Positions 14,734-19,997 of a stretch of DNA of 22,662 nt are shown one piece after another. The stretch lies in the IMG/VR virus record IMGVR_UViG_3300005527_000320, positions 1-22,662 of that record. The stretch is one strand, 5' to 3'. The stretch is from a virus. The notes under the pieces were generated by a model. The model saw only the letters and a list, made by a program, of their open reading frames with translations. It did not search any database and was not told the DNA's origin. A program made the position numbers and the translations under genes. Each line of letters opens with the position of its first letter. Within the stretch, counting starts at the first letter, position 1.

Positions 14734-14757
14734 AAAAGGCACCCTAGGGTGCCTTTT
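14734..14757 (-). terminator. Intrinsic terminator after tRNA-Leu(UAA)
   Basis: A perfect 24-bp palindrome, AAAAGGCACCCT/AGGGTGCCTTTT, with TTTT on either strand, so it can act both ways. It closes the tRNA/ncRNA unit 14 nt after the CCA end of tRNA-Leu(UAA) and separates it from the ligase promoter. Confidence 0.85.
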
Positions 14758-14770
14758 GTATCTGTTGCGT

Positions 14771-14854
14771 TGGTGCCCACTGCCGGACTCGAACCGGCAC
14801 TCCAGAGGAAGCAAATTTTAAGTCTGCCGCGGCTACCAATTTCACCAAGCGGGC
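14771..14854 (-). tRNA. tRNA-Leu (UAA), CCA encoded
   Basis: Class II tRNA: acceptor GCCCGCT/AGTGGGC, discriminator A and encoded CCA; anticodon loop CTTAAAA gives UAA; long variable arm (CCTCTGGAGT region); T-loop TTCGAGT within GCCGG/CCGGC. Confidence 0.95.
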
Positions 14855-14857
14855 ATT

Positions 14858-15253
14858 TTATTTTTTATACTTATCACCGGTAACTTGACCGGCACTCATT
14901 ATAATAACTGGAATACGTTTAATATTCATTTCACGAAATGCAAAGTAACGATGATGTCCATCAATTACTTGATAAGTGTTTTCTCGTGGAATTCTTCTTA
15001 CTAGTATTGGAGGTATCTTGCTGATATCTCGTTTTATCTGTTTTTTAATACTGTTTATATTTGCTCTAGCATCAACATCTTTAGTATCACCTTTACCGTC
15101 TCCTTCGAATCTAGATCGGATCTGATTCATAGGCATTACAACAACTCGGTTGTATTCGTTTTTAAAATCAGTTACATTGGCACCGACAGTACTGTCACCA
15201 GTTTCAGGATCAACGTCTTTGGTTATTTTTGCTACTACTTCAAATATTTTCAT
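14858..15253 (-). CDS. ParB/Srx-like nuclease-fold protein between two tRNAs
   Basis: 131 residues from MKIFEVVAKITKDV (ATG 15253). C-terminal half has the ParB/sulfiredoxin-like core: PPILVRRI, then YQVIDGHHRYFAFREM (GHHR at 99-102) and RIPVIIM. This motif binds and cleaves nucleotides in ParB-type CTPases and related phage nucleases or kinases; here it lacks a recognisable DNA-binding HTH, so chromosome partitioning is unlikely. The N-terminal part is charged (DFKNEYNRVVVMPMNQIRS). No Shine-Dalgarno; an AATAAATA late motif is 4 nt before ATG, and that motif starts 3 nt past the CCA end of tRNA-Leu(CAA). The gene sits between two tRNA-Leu genes and may be read both from the upstream tRNA unit and from the late motif. 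An in-frame extension upstream lies inside the tRNA and is rejected. Confidence 0.75.
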   Translation of the reverse strand: MKIFEVVAKITKDVDPETGDSTVGANVTDFKNEYNRVVVMPMNQIRSRFEGDGKGDTKDVDARANINSIKKQIKRDISKIPPILVRRIPRENTYQVIDGHHRYFAFREMNIKRIPVIIMSAGQVTGDKYKK

Positions 15254-15257
15254 ATAG

Positions 15258-15265
15258 TATTTATT
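15258..15265 (-). promoter_or_regulatory. Late promoter octamer AATAAATA at start codon
   Basis: Minus-strand AATAAATA, 4 nt upstream of ATG 15253 of the ParB-like gene and directly behind tRNA-Leu(CAA). No Shine-Dalgarno. Confidence 0.55.
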
Positions 15266-15268
15266 ATT

Positions 15269-15352
15269 TGGTGCCCCAGGAGGGACTTGAACCCCCACGC
15301 CTTGCGGCAAAAGATTTTGAATCTTCCGTGGCTACCATTACACCACTAGGGC
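15269..15352 (-). tRNA. tRNA-Leu (CAA), CCA encoded
   Basis: Class II tRNA: acceptor GCCCTAG/CTGGGGC, discriminator A and CCA; anticodon loop TTCAAAA gives CAA; long variable arm TTGCCGCAAGGCG; T-loop TTCAAGT. Confidence 0.94.
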
Positions 15353-15577
15353 AAAGTGTTGTTTAAAGGTGGCATCAGCACTTGTCTAGTACAAATTTAT
15401 CGGGCCCAGCTGCGTTCAAACAACTATGTGTCTGTTTTTACACCTACGTAAGGACTAGAATGTTTTTTATCCTTACTCCTTTAAACAATATAGTAATTAG
15501 CCTAGCAATAACCTATAGCATATCGCCGGGTCGCGGTCGACTCACTTCCCTTACACCCCCAAGGTGCAGGCTAAAAT
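15353..15577 (-). ncRNA. Structured spacer between tRNA-Leu(CAA) and tRNA-Met
   Basis: No credible gene. A perfect 11-bp inverted repeat (15359-15369 with 15478-15488) closes a ~110-nt domain, and a perfect 7-bp repeat (15497-15503 with 15568-15574) closes a second domain whose end lies 3 nt from the CCA end of tRNA-Met. A small AAGGA/TCCTT stem sits inside the first. As it lies between two tRNAs, tRNA processing would release it as a discrete RNA of about 220 nt. No known family recognised. Confidence 0.55.
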
Positions 15578-15653
15578 TGGTTGCGGTGGGCAGGACTCGA
15601 ACCTGCGATTTACTGGTTATGAGCCAGTCGAGATGCCGCTTCTCTACCCCGCA
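15578..15653 (-). tRNA. tRNA-Met (CAU), CCA encoded
   Basis: Anticodon stem ACTGG/CCAGT with loop CTCATAA gives CAU; D-arm GAGA/TCTC; T-arm GCAGG-TTCGAGT-CCTGC; A73 and CCA encoded. The acceptor TGCGGGG pairs with CCACCGCA only if one A bulges. Body resembles initiator tRNA but the anticodon stem lacks the three G-C pairs of initiators, so elongator Met or a lysidine-modified Ile(CAU) are possible. Confidence 0.88.
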
Positions 15654-16220
15654 ATATTCTGTTTACACATACACCCCAGCGCATTGCGTGTTTCAGTAAA
15701 GTTTGGGTGGCCGACCCTCATCTACGGGATGTATGTGTAAACAGACTTAACTAGTTGAACAGTCTCGGAAATGGAGTAGTCGCCTACAGCCAAGTGGGTC
15801 GGAACTCGAAAACTGTTCAACAAGTTAAGTTAAAAGATATGCCAATCCTCTTATCACTTTCCACAAACGGTACCGGTTTTTGAACTAACATATCGTTAAA
15901 CTTAATTTTTGCATAGGCTGAGATTATGCCTTGCTGTAGGAGCCTTTGACCATTACCGTTAGCCTTGCGAGCCACGTTCTGTCGTTATCCACAAGAGCCT
16001 TTTACGGTCATCTTGTATCTCCCAGTGGTGCCTTTTTTGGAGAGTGGCGTTTCTCTCGTCGCACGTTGCTACTCGTCCTTCTATCCTTCGTCTGCCTTGC
16101 GAGCAGTTCACAGTCGCTAAACCGTTACGCTATCTTTCCGAACAACTACATCAGCCTTGCGAGCATCCGTAGACCACATTCTCTTGCGAGTGTGGCATTA
16201 ACCACCTTTCACAACGTACC

Positions 16221-16334
16221 GGGACAGTCTTTCGCTTTTGTTTATCAAAGAAGGGATTGAACCTTCGCCGATTCCGTTCAATGGAATTGCTCTACCGCTG
16301 AGCTATTTGCGAACCTACTTCGATGTGCTGTCCC
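16221..16334 (-). ncRNA. tRNA-like domain embedded in nested helices of the large RNA
   Basis: Core 16246-16309: D-arm GCTC-AGCGGTA-GAGC, anticodon-like arm ATTCC-ATTGAAC-GGAAT (UGA if read normally), short variable loop, T-arm GAAGG-TTCAATC-CCTTC. The acceptor keeps only CAAA/TTTG and there is no CCA. Instead the ends continue into TTCGC/GCGAA (16309-16313 with 16231-16235) and a perfect 7-bp GGGACAG/CTGTCCC (16328-16334 with 16221-16227). So it is a helix-anchored tRNA-like module and cannot be a normal tRNA-Ser, which also would need a long variable arm. Confidence 0.65.
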
Positions 16335-16916
16335 AGTTGCTTCACGCCTTGTTAGACGCAAAATACAACACACCGACTGTCTTTTGCCTTGCGGGCTACT
16401 CAACGTCTTTTCAAGTATCCGGGGCCTAACCCTTCCACTCTCAAGATGCTACCATGCCTTTGCTTGCGGGCTCAGACTCTGTAGCTACCTGTTAACTTTC
16501 GGCATTCGTTAGTTTGGCTGAACAGTGTTTGGGCGCCAACCCTCTTATCGCTCACCGACTGGCTCTGCGACTATCCTTTCGGACACTATTCCTAACTTAC
16601 TGCCTACCGCCTTTCTACGGACGGGAGTTGCTTTCGGTACCCGAGTCAACTCTAGTTCAGGCTTGCTTAGATGGACCATTGCTGGCGCAAGTTTATAGGA
16701 AACCTTGCTTTGGGTGCATTACTGCACTTACCCTTACGTGGACGCTAAGCCGCCCATCTTACTGTGTTTACAACGATATATTGTTTATCTTATCGTCAGT
16801 CGATAGACATAGTGGTTAGCATTGCCATTTCAACTTATTGTCAGTAGCGTGTGGCCCTGTTGTTTCGCTAGGAACCACCCTAGTTACTTGACAGTGCTAC
16901 TACCCAATATACCTGT

Positions 16917-16971
16917 GTAAACACAGTGTTTACCAAATTATCAAAGAGCGTGTAAACAACTTCTTGCTTAC
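16917..16971 (-). promoter_or_regulatory. rRNA-type antitermination leader A (hairpin + boxA)
   Basis: At the predicted transcript start, an 8-bp hairpin (16952-16971; GTAAGCAA/TTGTTTAC with one G-U, loop GAAG) is followed by GCTCTTTGATAATTTGG (16933-16949). This closely matches bacterial rRNA boxA (E. coli TGCTCTTTAACAATTT). A third hairpin GTAAAC/GTTTAC (16917-16933) follows. Order hairpin-boxA is that of rrn leaders, where NusB/NusE bind boxA and protect untranslated RNA from Rho. Confidence 0.75.
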
Positions 16972-16977
16972 TTGTTT

Positions 16978-17006
16978 AATATAGTGCATGTTGCACCAAA
17001 GGTCAA
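16978..17006 (-). promoter_or_regulatory. rRNA-type sigma-70 promoter A with A-tract upstream element
   Basis: Minus strand: TTGACC 17001-17006, 17-bp spacer, TATATT 16978-16983. Upstream of the -35 (about 17011-17036) is a nearly pure A tract on the transcribed strand, as in UP elements. It should start transcription at the boxA leader and large RNA. Confidence 0.8.
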
Positions 17007-17035: not shown

Positions 17036-17110
17036 TGGAGCGGGTAACGGGATTCGAACCCGTGACCTGGTGCTTGGCAAGCAGCCGCTCTACCCCTGAG
17101 CTACACCCGC
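17036..17110 (-). tRNA. tRNA-Gly (GCC), CCA encoded
   Basis: Acceptor GCGGGTG paired with the 3' strand, discriminator T and CCA; D-arm GCTC/GAGC; anticodon loop TTGCCAA gives GCC; T-arm ACGGG-TTCGAAT-CCCGT. Last tRNA before promoter A, whose A-tract directly follows its 3' end. Confidence 0.93.
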
Positions 17111-17157
17111 ATTTTAAGTTTGTAGTGATTATTAAATTCACTATGTAGACAATTTAA

Positions 17158-17233
17158 TGGTGCCGGTAGAGAGATTCGAACTCCCCACCTGATGATTACT
17201 AATCAACTGCTCTACCAAATGAGCTATACCGGC
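17158..17233 (-). tRNA. tRNA-Thr (AGU), CCA encoded
   Basis: Acceptor GCCGGTA/TACCGGC, A73, CCA; D-arm GCTC/GAGC; loop TTAGTAA gives AGU with one T-T mismatch in the anticodon stem; T-arm GGGAG-TTCGAAT-CTCTC (one wobble). Its 5' end overlaps the last 10 nt of the SGNH-like gene. A34 is unusual for bacterial tRNA-Thr. Confidence 0.85.
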
Positions 17234-17937
17234 AAATTATTATAAAATGGAATAACCACATTTTCAGCAAATGCTTCGTGTTGTTTTCCTGAAGGATGAT
17301 CATCTCCCGGTGTAGGAAAGTCGTTGGGCATGTTATCTCTAGACCATTCGTAGCAACCCTTAACTGGTACAAATCTTGTCCAGTCTACCATTTCTTTTAA
17401 ATATTCTGTTTGCATAGTATTGACATTACTCTCATCAAATGTGCTTTGATTCATATTACTAAAAAAGTATTTTATATTATTTACTTTCAAGTAATTTTGC
17501 AATCTTAGAATATTTTCATAGGTTCTGATTAAATCAAATGTGTTGTTTGTATAAATCTTATAATGATTCGTTGAAAATCGACTAGGAAAACTTGCATTAA
17601 TCAATACCCATTTGCCTGCAGGATCATTTTTTGGCCACGCTAGGTGACTGGCTTCGGATATGTTTGGCTTTGATAATTGATTTAATACAAATGAGTTTTC
17701 TACATAAAATGATGCTCTGTTGGCAGCACTCCACATAACCCCAACTACTATATCTTTCGATTCTACATTGTTTTTGAATAAATCATTAACTTGATAAATT
17801 GCACGTCTAGCGATATGCTCATTTCCATTACTGCCCAATCCCATTGGGTAATGGGCATATTTCATTTTTTTTGCAAAATGAAAGGGCCAAGTATGATTGT
17901 CGTATGTAAATGAGCATCCGCTTGATACAAAGTGCAT
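17224..17937 (-). CDS. Second SGNH-like protein, running into tRNA-Thr
   Basis: 237 residues from MHFVSSGCSFTYDNHTWPFH. Block I GCSFT with candidate nucleophile S9 lies almost at the N-terminus; GLGSNGNEHIARR (about 33-45) may supply the Gly/Asn oxyanion residues; GDDHPSGKQHEAF near the C-terminus carries the Asp-x-His type block V. This resembles the SGNH-like protein at 9873-10598 but lacks its 60-residue N-terminal extension. The stop codon lies inside tRNA-Thr (10-bp overlap), so tRNA processing would cut the mRNA end. No Shine-Dalgarno; a GATAAATA late motif is 4 nt before the ATG at 17937. Flanked on both sides by tRNA genes. Motif-based call; hydrolase activity unproven. Confidence 0.62.
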   Translation of the reverse strand: MHFVSSGCSFTYDNHTWPFHFAKKMKYAHYPMGLGSNGNEHIARRAIYQVNDLFKNNVESKDIVVGVMWSAANRASFYVENSFVLNQLSKPNISEASHLAWPKNDPAGKWVLINASFPSRFSTNHYKIYTNNTFDLIRTYENILRLQNYLKVNNIKYFFSNMNQSTFDESNVNTMQTEYLKEMVDWTRFVPVKGCYEWSRDNMPNDFPTPGDDHPSGKQHEAFAENVVIPFYNNLPV

Positions 17938-18029: not shown

Positions 18030-18106
18030 TGGTCGGAGTGACAGGATTTGAACCCACGACATCTTGGTCCCAAACCAAGCGCTCTACCAAACTGAGCTAC
18101 ACTCCG
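18030..18106 (-). tRNA. tRNA-Pro (UGG), CCA encoded
   Basis: Acceptor CGGAGTG/CACTCCG, A73, CCA; D-arm GCTC/GAGC; anticodon stem CTTGG/CCAAG with loop TTTGGGA gives UGG; T-loop TTCAAAT. Confidence 0.95.
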
Positions 18107-18112
18107 ATATAC

Positions 18113-18188
18113 TGGCTGGGAAGGGTGGATTCGAACCACCAACCAACGGATTCAAAGTCCGGTACTCTACCAATTGAGCTACTTCCCA
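18113..18188 (-). tRNA. tRNA-Gln (UUG), CCA encoded
   Basis: Acceptor TGGGAAG/CTTCCCA with U1-A72 and G73, both typical of tRNA-Gln; CCA encoded; loop CTTTGAA gives UUG; T-arm GGTGG-TTCGAAT-CCACC. Confidence 0.95.
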
Positions 18189-18194
18189 ACATTT

Positions 18195-18276
18195 TGGTGC
18201 GGATAGAGGGACTCGAACCCCCACGCTTACGCACTAGTTCCTAAGACTAGCGTGGCTACCATTACACCATATCCGC
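18195..18276 (-). tRNA. tRNA-Leu (UAG), CCA encoded
   Basis: Class II tRNA: acceptor GCGGATA/TATCCGC, A73, CCA; anticodon stem CTAGT/ACTAG with loop CTTAGGA gives UAG; long variable arm TGCGTAAGCG; T-loop TTCGAGT. Confidence 0.95.
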
Positions 18277-18281
18277 ATTAA

Positions 18282-18357
18282 TGGTGCCCCCAGCAGGACT
18301 TGAACCCGCGACCCCCTGATTACAAATCAGGTGCTCTACCAGCTGAGCTATAAGGGC
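18282..18357 (-). tRNA. tRNA-Thr (UGU), CCA encoded
   Basis: Acceptor GCCCTTA/TGGGGGC (two wobbles), A73, CCA; anticodon stem CCTGA/TCAGG with loop TTTGTAA gives UGU; T-loop TTCAAGT. Confidence 0.94.
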
Positions 18358-18367
18358 AAAAACTTTT

Positions 18368-18441
18368 TGGAGCGGGTAACGAGATTCGAACTCGTGACAA
18401 GAGCTTGGAAGGCTCGCATGTTACCGCTACACCATACCCGC
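18368..18441 (-). tRNA. tRNA-Gly (UCC), CCA encoded
   Basis: Acceptor GCGGGTA/TACCCGC, discriminator T, CCA; stem GAGC/GCTC with loop CTTCCAA gives UCC; T-arm ACGAG-TTCGAAT-CTCGT. Confidence 0.95.
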
Positions 18442-18448
18442 ATTATAT

Positions 18449-18524
18449 TGGCGACCTGTACCGGGATCGAACCGGTGTTCTTCTGCGTGACAGGCAGACG
18501 TATTAACCACTTTACCAACAGGCC
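18449..18524 (-). tRNA. tRNA-Asp (GUC), CCA encoded
   Basis: Acceptor GGCCTGT/ACAGGTC (one G-U), G73 typical of Asp, CCA; anticodon stem TCTGC/GCAGA with loop CTGTCAC gives GUC; T-arm ACCGG-TTCGATC-CCGGT. Confidence 0.94.
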
Positions 18525-18714
18525 AAAAGCATCACACACGGCTTACAAGTTCCGTCCCACCACTATGTGAAAGGTGTGATGCAACACTGTATACTACGCC
18601 GTTCCAAACCAACATCTAGTGTTGATATGCTATTTAAAGCCACGCACTGCTATTTCAAACAGTTACTCACGTTGCTATGCTTACGCTACTAGGAGGTTCA
18701 CAGTGTGTTTATTA
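18525..18714 (-). ncRNA. Structured spacer between tRNA-Asp and tRNA-Ser
   Basis: 190 nt without a gene. Perfect 9-bp inverted repeat GCATCACAC/GTGTGATGC (18529-18537 with 18574-18582) encloses a small ACGG/CCGT hairpin; a second perfect repeat CAACACT/AGTGTTG (18582-18588 with 18618-18624) abuts it. Flanking tRNA processing would release it as a separate RNA. Confidence 0.45.
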
Positions 18715-18802
18715 TGGCGGAAGCGGTGAGATTCGAACTCACGGTACCTTGCGGTACGCTGGTTTTCAAGACCAGAGCCATCAACCACTCGGCCACACTT
18801 CC
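18715..18802 (-). tRNA. tRNA-Ser (UGA), CCA encoded
   Basis: Class II tRNA: acceptor GGAAGTG/CGCTTCC (one mismatch or wobble), G73, CCA; anticodon stem CTGGT/ACCAG with loop CTTGAAA gives UGA; long variable arm GTACCGCAAGGTAC; T-loop TTCGAAT. Confidence 0.95.
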
Positions 18803-18809
18803 GTATATT

Positions 18810-18885
18810 TGGCACAGGAGCAAGGACTTGAACCCTGGACATTCGGTTTTGGAGACCGACGCTCTACCAACTGAGCTACACCTGC
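18810..18885 (-). tRNA. tRNA-Trp (CCA), CCA end encoded
   Basis: Acceptor GCAGGTG with CTCCTGT (one mismatch), G73, CCA; anticodon stem TCGGT/ACCGA with loop CTCCAAA gives CCA; T-loop TTCAAGT. Confidence 0.92.
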
Positions 18886-18891
18886 ATATAT

Positions 18892-18966
18892 TGGTGCGGA
18901 ATGAGAGGGTCGAACTCCCGACAACCTCGGTGTAAACGAGGGGCTCTACCACTGAGCTAATTCCGC
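18892..18966 (-). tRNA. tRNA-Val (UAC), CCA encoded
   Basis: Acceptor GCGGAAT/ATTCCGC, A73, CCA; anticodon stem CCTCG/CGAGG with loop TTTACAC gives UAC; T-loop TTCGACC. Confidence 0.94.
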
Positions 18967-19189
18967 ATATCACTGTTTACCGCGTGACTAGAAAACTTGC
19001 CATCAAAGCGGGATTTGTTAATTGCTTGTTAATCTCTGGGCTTCCCCGTTAATCTTCAAGTTCTTAACTGGTCTCGGACTGCAACTTTGATACCGTGTTT
19101 ACTGATTGTGCAGTACTGTTCAAGTTAAACAACTTACACAATGTTCAACGCGGCTTTTCTAGCCCCTCGGAAAACAGTGACTATATTAA
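18967..19189 (-). ncRNA. Structured ~220-nt spacer RNA with candidate pseudoknot
   Basis: Between tRNA-Val and tRNA-Ala, no gene. A perfect 9-bp repeat TCACTGTTT/AAACAGTGA (18970-18978 with 19172-19180) closes the whole region. Inside, CCGCGT (18980-18985) pairs with ACGCGG (19148-19153) and CTAGAAAA (18988-18995) with TTTTCTAG (19155-19162) in crossing order, a pseudoknot or a switch. ATCAAAG/CTTTGAT (19002-19008 with 19085-19091) nests within. No known family recognised. Confidence 0.55.
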
Positions 19190-19265
19190 TGGTGGACCCT
19201 AGCGGGATCGAACCGCTGACCTCCTGAATGCAAATCAGGCGCTCTCCCAGCTGAGCTAAGAGCCC
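19190..19265 (-). tRNA. tRNA-Ala (UGC), CCA encoded
   Basis: Acceptor GGGCTCT/AGGGTCC (two wobbles), A73, CCA; anticodon stem CCTGA/TCAGG with loop TTTGCAT gives UGC; T-loop TTCGATC. The usual Ala G3-U70 position carries a G-T pair, consistent with Ala identity. Confidence 0.95.
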
Positions 19266-19271
19266 GTATAT

Positions 19272-19359
19272 TGGCGGAGCGTCTGGGAGTCGAACCCAGT
19301 CTACCCTTGCGGGTAGTGCAGATTAGCAATCTGTTGCCTTACCGTCCGGCCCACGCTCC
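19272..19359 (-). tRNA. tRNA-Ser (GCU), CCA encoded
   Basis: Class II tRNA: acceptor GGAGCGT/ACGCTCC, G73, CCA; loop TTGCTAA gives GCU; long variable arm CTACCCGCAAGGGTAG; T-loop TTCGACT. Confidence 0.95.
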
Positions 19360-19366
19360 GTATATT

Positions 19367-19442
19367 TGGCTCCTCGTGCTGGGCTCGAACCAGCGACACT
19401 TTGATTAACAGTCAAATACTCTACCAACTGAGCTAACGAGGA
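19367..19442 (-). tRNA. tRNA-Asn (GUU), CCA encoded
   Basis: Acceptor TCCTCGT/ACGAGGA, G73, CCA; anticodon stem TTTGA/TCAAA with loop CTGTTAA gives GUU; T-arm GCTGG-TTCGAGC-CCAGC. First complete tRNA of transcription unit B. Confidence 0.95.
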
Positions 19443-19776
19443 ACACTAACTCTACTTACAGCTACACAGAAACTTAGCATAACGACCTCCGGACGGCCCT
19501 CTGCGAGTATATCTGTGTATGTGTAAATAAACTCTACTTACAACTGCTAACGTGTAGGATTTGCACCTACAAGCGGACCGCCGTCCTATTTGCTACACCG
19601 CGTAGTTAAGCTGACTCGAACAGCACACCGCAACCCAACGGACCACGGACTCGAACCGTGTTTACTTCTATTCATTAGCATGTGTAAGTAGAGTCATTCT
19701 CTACTTACCCCACAATTATCGACTTTCGTCTATGTAGGTGTTGTTTGAAGTTTCTAAACGAAACAAAACAACTGAT
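19443..19776 (-). ncRNA. Structured leader RNA with three T-arm-like modules and decamer repeats
   Basis: 334 nt without a gene, between boxA leader B and tRNA-Asn. Three 7-nt T-loop-like hairpins: 19644-19660 (CACGG-TTCGAGT-CCGTG), 19610-19624 (GCTG-TTCGAGT-CAGC), 19554-19570 (GTAGG-TGCAAAT-CCTAC). None belongs to a complete tRNA: D and anticodon arms and CCA are missing. GTAAGTAGAG occurs at 19450-19459, 19532-19541 and 19699-19708, plus once inverted at 19684-19693, where it forms a perfect 10-bp hairpin. An 8-bp repeat TACACAGA/TCTGTGTA (19463-19470 with 19512-19519) also pairs. Either decayed tRNAs or a structured RNA using T-loops as tertiary contacts. Confidence 0.55.
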
Positions 19777-19809
19777 CTAAATTTTCAAAGAGCGTGTAAC
19801 TTGCGTTAC
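19777..19809 (-). promoter_or_regulatory. rRNA-type antitermination leader B (GNRA hairpin + boxA)
   Basis: Perfect 5-bp hairpin GTAAC-GCAA-GTTAC (19796-19809), a GNRA tetraloop, immediately followed by boxA-like GCTCTTTGAAAATTTAG (19777-19793). Nearly identical in layout and boxA sequence to leader A at 16933-16971. Confidence 0.75.
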
Positions 19810-19822
19810 TGTTTGTTTAGTT

Positions 19823-19851
19823 AACATAGCGTATATTTTTTACTGTGTCAA
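19823..19851 (-). promoter_or_regulatory. rRNA-type sigma-70 promoter B with A-tract
   Basis: Minus strand: TTGACA 19846-19851, 17-bp spacer, TATGTT 19823-19828; A-rich tract upstream (about 19855-19875). Proximal of two tandem promoters for the main tRNA array. Confidence 0.8.
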
Positions 19852-19913
19852 CTGTTTTTTTCTTTTTTATTTTCGGAGCATCTAAACTGTTGTTCTTTGC
19901 GTCCTATGTATGT

Positions 19914-19942
19914 GTTATATAGTGTGTGCCTGTACTTGTCAA
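19914..19942 (-). promoter_or_regulatory. Upstream tandem sigma-70 promoter of the tRNA array
   Basis: Minus strand: TTGACA 19937-19942, 17-bp spacer, TATAAC 19914-19919 (TATATA is an alternative with shorter spacing). About 90 bp upstream of promoter B, like P1/P2 of rRNA operons. It starts right after the terminator at 19965. Confidence 0.7.
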
Positions 19943-19964
19943 CCGTCTTTTTGAACTACTAATG

Positions 19965-19997
19965 AAAAAACCCTCCCAGTTTTGCTAGGAGGGTTTT
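19965..19997 (-). terminator. Intrinsic terminator of the short RNA unit
   Basis: Perfect 10-bp stem AAAACCCTCC/GGAGGGTTTT (19967-19976 with 19988-19997), 11-nt loop, followed on the minus strand by TTTTTT. Separates the short RNA/small-frame unit from the tRNA promoters. Confidence 0.92.

Follow-up and report, generated by a model that had tools for sequence, protein, structure and literature searches.

The principal tRNA array of this 22,662-base IMG/VR virus record is headed by a leader, unit B, that we read as an rrn-type Nus-factor antitermination or folding leader placed on a phage stable-RNA operon, and we put the probability of this reading at roughly three in four. Computation shows which elements the leader has, in what order they stand, how widely they occur and how specifically they are placed; Nus binding and its effect are what we infer. 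The record was analysed over its whole length, which we call the window. Its right half holds 18 minus-strand tRNA genes (ARAGORN, Rfam), and a second leader of the same kind, unit A, precedes a GOLLD RNA. Rfam finds no rRNA in the window, the cargo of the two leaders being tRNAs and GOLLD; because these, and not rRNA, lie downstream, the leader would work like an rrn leader but is none by cargo.

Two leaders in one window

The leader of unit B runs along the minus strand from 19942 to 19785, 5' of the main tRNA array, and the order of elements is terminator-like hairpin, P1, A-tract, P2, hairpin, boxA, a leader of about 340 nt, tRNA-Asn and the rest of the array. The terminator-like hairpin with its T-run (19962-19997, minus strand) is an inverted repeat with 13-nt arms (19967-19979 and 19985-19997, 92% complementary) and a loop of 5; lying just upstream of P1, it would set unit B apart from the genes upstream. 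Promoter P1 (19914-19942, minus strand) reads TTGACA - 17 nt - TATAAC, with its -35 at 19942-19937 and its -10 at 19919-19914, and promoter P2 (19823-19851, minus strand; 10/12 matches in a promoter scan) reads TTGACA - 17 nt - TATGTT, with its -35 at 19851-19846 and its -10 at 19828-19823. The two are 91 bp apart, and P1 is retained at -87 to -93 from P2 in four relatives (L002, L010, L047 and L265). An UP-element-like A-tract (about 19852-19873, minus strand), 83% identical to the tract of unit A, abuts the -35 of P2. The hairpin GTAAC-GCAA-GTTAC (19796-19809, minus strand), which folds alone, occupies the position of rrn boxB, and boxA, CGCTCTTTGA followed by AAATTTAGA (19785-19794, minus strand), starts 1 nt after it. 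All the elements that the preliminary description had listed for this unit (two tandem sigma-70 promoters, A-tract, GNRA hairpin and boxA) are therefore present, on the minus strand.

Between boxA and the array lies a structured leader RNA (19443-19784, minus strand; fold and nine-leader alignment) comprising a CTTAG-AC-GNAA-GTC-GATRAT hairpin, a GTAAGTAGAG/CTCTACTTAC stem and T-arm-like hairpins. The RNA of 19440-19815 folds with a z-score of -6.4, that is, 6.4 standard deviations better than its shuffles. Across nine aligned related leaders, boxA and the TTTAGA after it are invariant, and they are followed by the same conserved hairpin and then by a stem, GTAAGTAGA/TCTACTTACA. In these leaders GTAAGTAGAG recurs once or twice further downstream, and there are therefore alternative partners for TCTACTTACA. 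Three T-arm-like hairpins, for example CACGGTTCGAGTCCGTG, stand before tRNA-Asn in this stretch. We considered a known Rfam family as the identity of this RNA and rejected it, as none matches.

The array of unit B (18030-19442, minus strand; ARAGORN, Rfam) encodes tRNAs for Asn, Ser, Ala, Val, Trp, Ser, Asp, Gly, Thr, Leu, Gln and Pro, and tRNA-Thr(agt) and tRNA-Gly(gcc) (17036-17233, minus strand; ARAGORN) lie between units B and A. Within the array, about 220 nt between tRNA-Val and tRNA-Ala (18967-19189, minus strand) are closed by 26-nt arms of 85% complementarity (TCACTGTTT../..AAACAGTGA) and probably form a further structured RNA. A gene for a DUF6071 protein (17224-17937, minus strand) is also found within the array, its end overlapping tRNA-Thr by about 10 nt.

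Unit A has a single promoter, TTGACC - 17 nt - TATATT (16978-17006, minus strand; promoter scan, 10/12), followed by a hairpin, GTAAGCAA-GAAG-TTGTTTAC (16952-16971, minus strand; shuffle p = 0.005 for the fold), and by boxA, CGCTCTTTGA and then TAATTT (16941-16950, minus strand; motif search). Its GOLLD RNA (15915-16376, minus strand) contains tRNA-Ser(tga) and matches RF02032 at 190.5 bits against a gathering threshold of 150, covering the whole Rfam model (positions 1-416 of 416); the variable 5' part probably starts near 16930. The unit ends with tRNA-Met, tRNA-Leu(caa) and tRNA-Leu(taa) (14771-15653, minus strand; ARAGORN), and the perfect 12-bp palindrome AAAAGGCACCCT/AGGGTGCCTTTT that follows the last tRNA (14734-14757, minus strand; inverted repeat) is probably the operon terminator. 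A gene for a small ParB_N-domain protein (14858-15250, minus strand) is situated between tRNA-Leu(caa) and tRNA-Leu(taa).

The boxA stretch common to the two units proved longer than first described, extending over 21 nt at 95% identity (19779-19799 and 16935-16955) in addition to the A-tract. With up to 3 mismatches allowed, the shared 18-mer CACGCTCTTTGATAATTT matches only at units A and B, where shuffles lead us to expect 0.02 matches and none of 100 shuffles of the window holds two; the earlier argument that two copies speak against chance is upheld by this comparison. The shorter pattern YGCTCTTTRA is likewise confined to units A and B, and at least two matches to it occur in 5 of 100 shuffles. 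The same description had offered duplication or shared regulation as explanations. Shared regulation by an rRNA-like leader is supported by the enrichment, the placement, the hairpins and the rrn boxA, but 'duplication' is a poor term, because the leaders precede different RNAs and because the two-leader arrangement recurs in diverged phage records (G002, G003 and G010). A recent duplication of one leader from the other we rejected, since only about 21 nt and the A-tract are common to them and the arrangement is found in other phages.

Occurrence in other phages

The exact 21-mer of the boxA region occurs in 10 stretches of IMG/VR contigs, and tRNAs or GOLLD lie downstream in eight of these; the remaining two end before any downstream tRNA, one (L005) being the same sequence as unit B and the other (L009) closely like unit A. 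We then searched IMG/VR with a broad frame, a promoter with a 17-nt spacer followed after 12-42 nt by the boxA YGCTCTTTRANAATT. More than 119 stretches matched, and more than 119 also matched the same frame with the boxA variant GTTCTTT, against two for a permuted boxA. Among the matches listed, a tRNA lies on the same strand within 1.5 kb downstream in 144 of 250 promoter-boxA units (68/128 in the YGCTCTTTRANAATT set and 76/122 in the GTTCTTT set), and the median distance from unit to tRNA over the 122 listed units of the latter is 51 nt. Outside the promoter context, none of about 100 matches to the 15-mer TTACACGCTCTTTGA lies within 1.5 kb upstream of a same-strand tRNA. In ten phage records totalling 2.28 Mb there are 14 exact boxA sites, of which 13 are followed by tRNAs or GOLLD and the remaining one lies at the end of a contig; the reversed pattern is absent from these records; boxA is often present as a single copy in each of these whole records. 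The boxA upstream of tRNA arrays that was to be sought in other phage genomes is thus to be found there, and the rRNA-like character first proposed for the leader appears well founded by sequences from far beyond the window. We judge the leader, from its sequence, to be real and conserved.

The hairpin recurs with it. Counting distinct spacers (clusters) between the -10 and boxA, and requiring a stem score of at least 5 and an end no more than 3 nt from boxA, we found that 26 of 47 have a hairpin immediately 5' of boxA, against 1.55 (sd 1.24) in shuffles. These hairpins have 25 different stems and 13 GNRA loops, such that the sequence varies and the pairing is kept. Units that do not precede tRNAs have it much less often (5/39 against 1.41 shuffled) in this set; in the GTTCTTT set the counts are 23/59 against 2.75 for tRNA units and 13/36 against 2.13 for the others. 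Of 48 leaders, 13 have a second promoter upstream, where shuffles give 4.3 (sd 2.1), and tandem promoters are therefore real in the window and its relatives, yet not general. Directly upstream of the -35 the fraction of A is 0.43 in 48 units before tRNAs, compared with 0.31 at positions further upstream, and the units that do not precede tRNAs hardly differ (0.40 and 0.29); we accordingly rejected a special tie between A-tract and tRNA units, other promoter-boxA units being equally A-rich.

Relatives of the window were fetched through the neighbouring DNA ligase and not through boxA, and among them we looked for close relatives that keep the tRNAs and have lost boxA. The four closest with the region in view (L490, L492, L493 and L564) all keep it, before GOLLD and, where visible, before the array. 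At about 76% ligase identity or less, most tRNA arrays are without boxA, and some distant relatives place a bare promoter directly at the first tRNA. Across the ligase relatives, an exact boxA lies within 900 nt of 7 of 33 tRNA arrays (reversed pattern, 0/33), from which it follows that phages can make tRNA arrays without it.

Seventeen GOLLD loci were also fetched without use of boxA, and the comparison was limited to those with enough upstream sequence. In L003, L007, L008 and L328, boxA lies 680-727 nt before the conserved GOLLD motif; L118 and L329 have GTTCTTT variants of boxA in the same promoter-hairpin frame, and the group of L327, L336 and L337 has a promoter without boxA. The GOLLD of phage Phosso (186.6 bits) likewise has no boxA. 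The isolate Xanthomonas phage XacN1 has boxA sites of a single kind, present twice owing to the terminal repeats. This boxA stands at the start of 2.4 kb of non-coding sequence with a permuted tmRNA (RF04321, 123 bits) and GOLLD (227 bits), after which comes tRNA-Gly; the unannotated region (AP018399 36560-39053; L366:1061-3554) contains two further promoter-like sites besides the boxA leader, tmRNA and GOLLD. The paper on XacN1 names no promoter, boxA, tmRNA or GOLLD (PMC5852040).

A blastn search of isolate phages with the leader returned only AT-rich noise, or T5-like and astrithr-like phages in which hairpin and boxA are not at tRNAs. In PA5oct, Atu_ph07, Phosso, CcrColossus, RaK2, KVP40 and GAP32, YGCTCTTTRANAAT is absent at the tRNAs and none of the GYTCTTTRANAA matches is a promoter-linked leader before tRNAs. 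The T5-like and small phages, Klebsiella phage pzk-kv23 (L339), Proteus phage PM135 (L341) and Salmonella phage astrithr (L342), have hairpin and boxA before small ORFs or where nothing is annotated. There is also a recurrent leader, TTGACA..TTTGTAAAAC..GGAAANGTCC..GTTCTTTGAAAATT, with another, TAnCTTTG-like type of -10 (L377, L380, L389, L396, L407, L419, L426, L448 and L462), which is mostly not before tRNAs and may come from Bacteroidetes phages. A group I intron match, at threshold, was seen within a phage tRNA array at L185:983-1186 (minus strand).

Host factors, mechanism and alternatives

The boxA of units A and B, CGCTCTTTGAAAA, differs from the gammaproteobacterial consensus solely at position 8, with G for A. 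Among 63 bacterial-genome matches to the 18-mer CACGCTCTTTGAWAATTT are two rrn leaders, each from Rhodobacteraceae: in L183 the 16S gene follows after 192 nt, and in L170, which breaks off soon after the match, the leader sequence is the same. The others have no 16S start downstream and look like chance matches in coding sequence. The type of boxA points to Alphaproteobacteria as the host group; at odds with this, the closest match to the head protease comes from Pseudomonas phage PA5oct, at 62%. Neither a NusB nor a NusG gene is present in five large relatives (G002-G006) or in XacN1; the simplest reading is therefore that the phage leader recruits Nus factors from its host, which it presumably does.

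Under the mechanism that we propose, the two sigma-70 promoters, the second with its A-tract, would start transcription of unit B, and the first RNA to emerge from the polymerase would be the short hairpin at the boxB position, followed by boxA. Going by known boxA biology, host NusB and S10 (NusE) would bind the boxA RNA and, together with NusA, NusG and SuhB, modify the polymerase, which could then transcribe highly structured, untranslated RNA over several kilobases without being stopped by Rho and would also assist the folding and processing of the tRNAs and non-coding RNA. Unit A would play the same role for GOLLD. In rrn leaders boxB, boxA and boxC follow P2 in this order, and boxA is necessary and sufficient for factor recruitment (PMC10250234); its consensus is GYTCTTTAANA (PMC5725501). 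Several observations weigh against an rrn-type leader: among the matches listed, nearly half of the promoter-boxA units are not before tRNAs, most tRNA arrays of the ligase relatives are without an exact boxA, and GOLLD occurs without boxA in Phosso and in L327, L336 and L337. At suhB, moreover, a boxA acts in repression (PMC5725501), and one study found that rRNA resists Rho even without Nus factors (PMC4807359), so that the consequence may be folding rather than antitermination.

In lambda nut sites boxA comes before boxB, and lambda boxB has a GNRA-like fold. A nut-like site, at which a phage N-like protein binds the hairpin and builds a phage-specific antitermination complex with Nus factors, would suit a hairpin that is conserved here and often has GNRA-type tetraloops, as well as the lack of a known ligand for the rrn boxB of E. 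coli (PMC10250234). Yet both units have the rrn order of hairpin and then boxA, and loops and stems differ even within one phage, between units A and B, and therefore fit one sequence-specific protein poorly; we consider such a site decidedly unlikely. Less probable still is a decoy, in which strong boxA transcripts would, beside or instead of any cis role, titrate host Nus factors from rRNA operons and lower ribosome synthesis. High expression of NutL RNA does titrate Nus factors and lower rRNA (PMC4807359), and the boxA matches alphaproteobacterial rrn exactly, but in every whole-record case checked it heads a tRNA or GOLLD operon, often in one copy, which a cis role fits better. As for chance, the motif is short enough for YGCTCTTTRA to appear twice in 5 of 100 window shuffles; a chance resemblance to boxA in an AT-rich promoter region is nonetheless scarcely credible given 0.02 expected occurrences of the longer shared block, two matches for the scrambled boxA against more than 119, and the retention of boxA and TTTAGA in nine of nine aligned leaders.

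The alternative that we take most seriously, though it too is unlikely, is that the leader serves mainly Nus/SuhB-assisted folding, processing or maturation control of the precursor and not Rho resistance. The RNA downstream is strongly structured (z = -6.4), its repeated complementary segments permit alternative pairing, and Nus factors have been proposed to act in rRNA folding (PMC4807359). On the other side, boxA also stands immediately ahead of simple arrays whose first tRNA follows after about 27-30 nt, and such transcripts should need little special folding. Extending the rrn-type reading to a widespread class of operons for phage stable RNAs, as yet undescribed, in which the host Nus/SuhB complex is redirected to tRNA arrays and giant ncRNAs by a boxA fitted to the host rrn and the draw on this limited machinery lowers host rRNA synthesis, would be speculative, and we regard it as doubtful.

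Relation to known systems

The transcripts of phage tRNA arrays and of GOLLD are long, are not translated and should be liable to Rho termination, and their expression is unexplained in the literature that we found. A recurring rrn-type leader offers a concrete and testable answer to how phages express such RNAs, would add phage stable RNAs to the rRNA and few mRNAs known to be under boxA control, and provides a sequence tag for locating such operons; since the cultured phage XacN1 carries a boxA leader, the question can be tested now. We found no paper linking boxA with phage tRNA arrays, subscription literature lying outside the search. The parts are known; what seems to be undescribed is their use at the head of phage tRNA arrays and GOLLD, and this use suggests that phages borrow the host machinery of rRNA transcription for their own stable RNAs.

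Cellular boxA elements outside rrn, at suhB and other genes, provide one precedent, but they were sought within 50 nt of mRNA start codons and non-coding RNAs were not considered (PMC5725501). Lambda nut (boxA-boxB, with the N protein) is likewise a phage RNA that uses boxA and, as probably here, Nus factors, whereas the phage leader has its hairpin before boxA and untranslated RNA downstream. The GOLLD of unit A is typical: in line with the published description (PMC12286853), it matches the full model (RF02032), has a tRNA inside and lies close to a tRNA island. The literature found does not report a boxA leader whose distance from GOLLD is almost constant. Jumbo phages such as XacN1 (PMC5852040) similarly gather many tRNAs in one block, and in XacN1 boxA heads the stretch of tmRNA, GOLLD and tRNA, in contrast to PA5oct, Atu_ph07, CcrColossus, RaK2, KVP40 and GAP32, which have no boxA leader at their tRNAs. 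The closest analogue is the bacterial rrn leader with its complex of NusA, NusB, NusE, NusG, SuhB and S4. The phage leader departs from it in preceding tRNA arrays and GOLLD, in often having a single promoter and in having no clear boxC: read by eye, unit B shows no consensus boxC (UGUGUGGG-like) downstream of boxA but has GATAATTGTGGGG, and the rrn leader of L170 has GATATGTGGGCGG. It resembles the rrn leader in its tandem promoters, in the hairpin followed by boxA, in the consensus and in the structured untranslated RNA with tRNAs downstream, and its 18-mer is identical in two Rhodobacteraceae rrn leaders.
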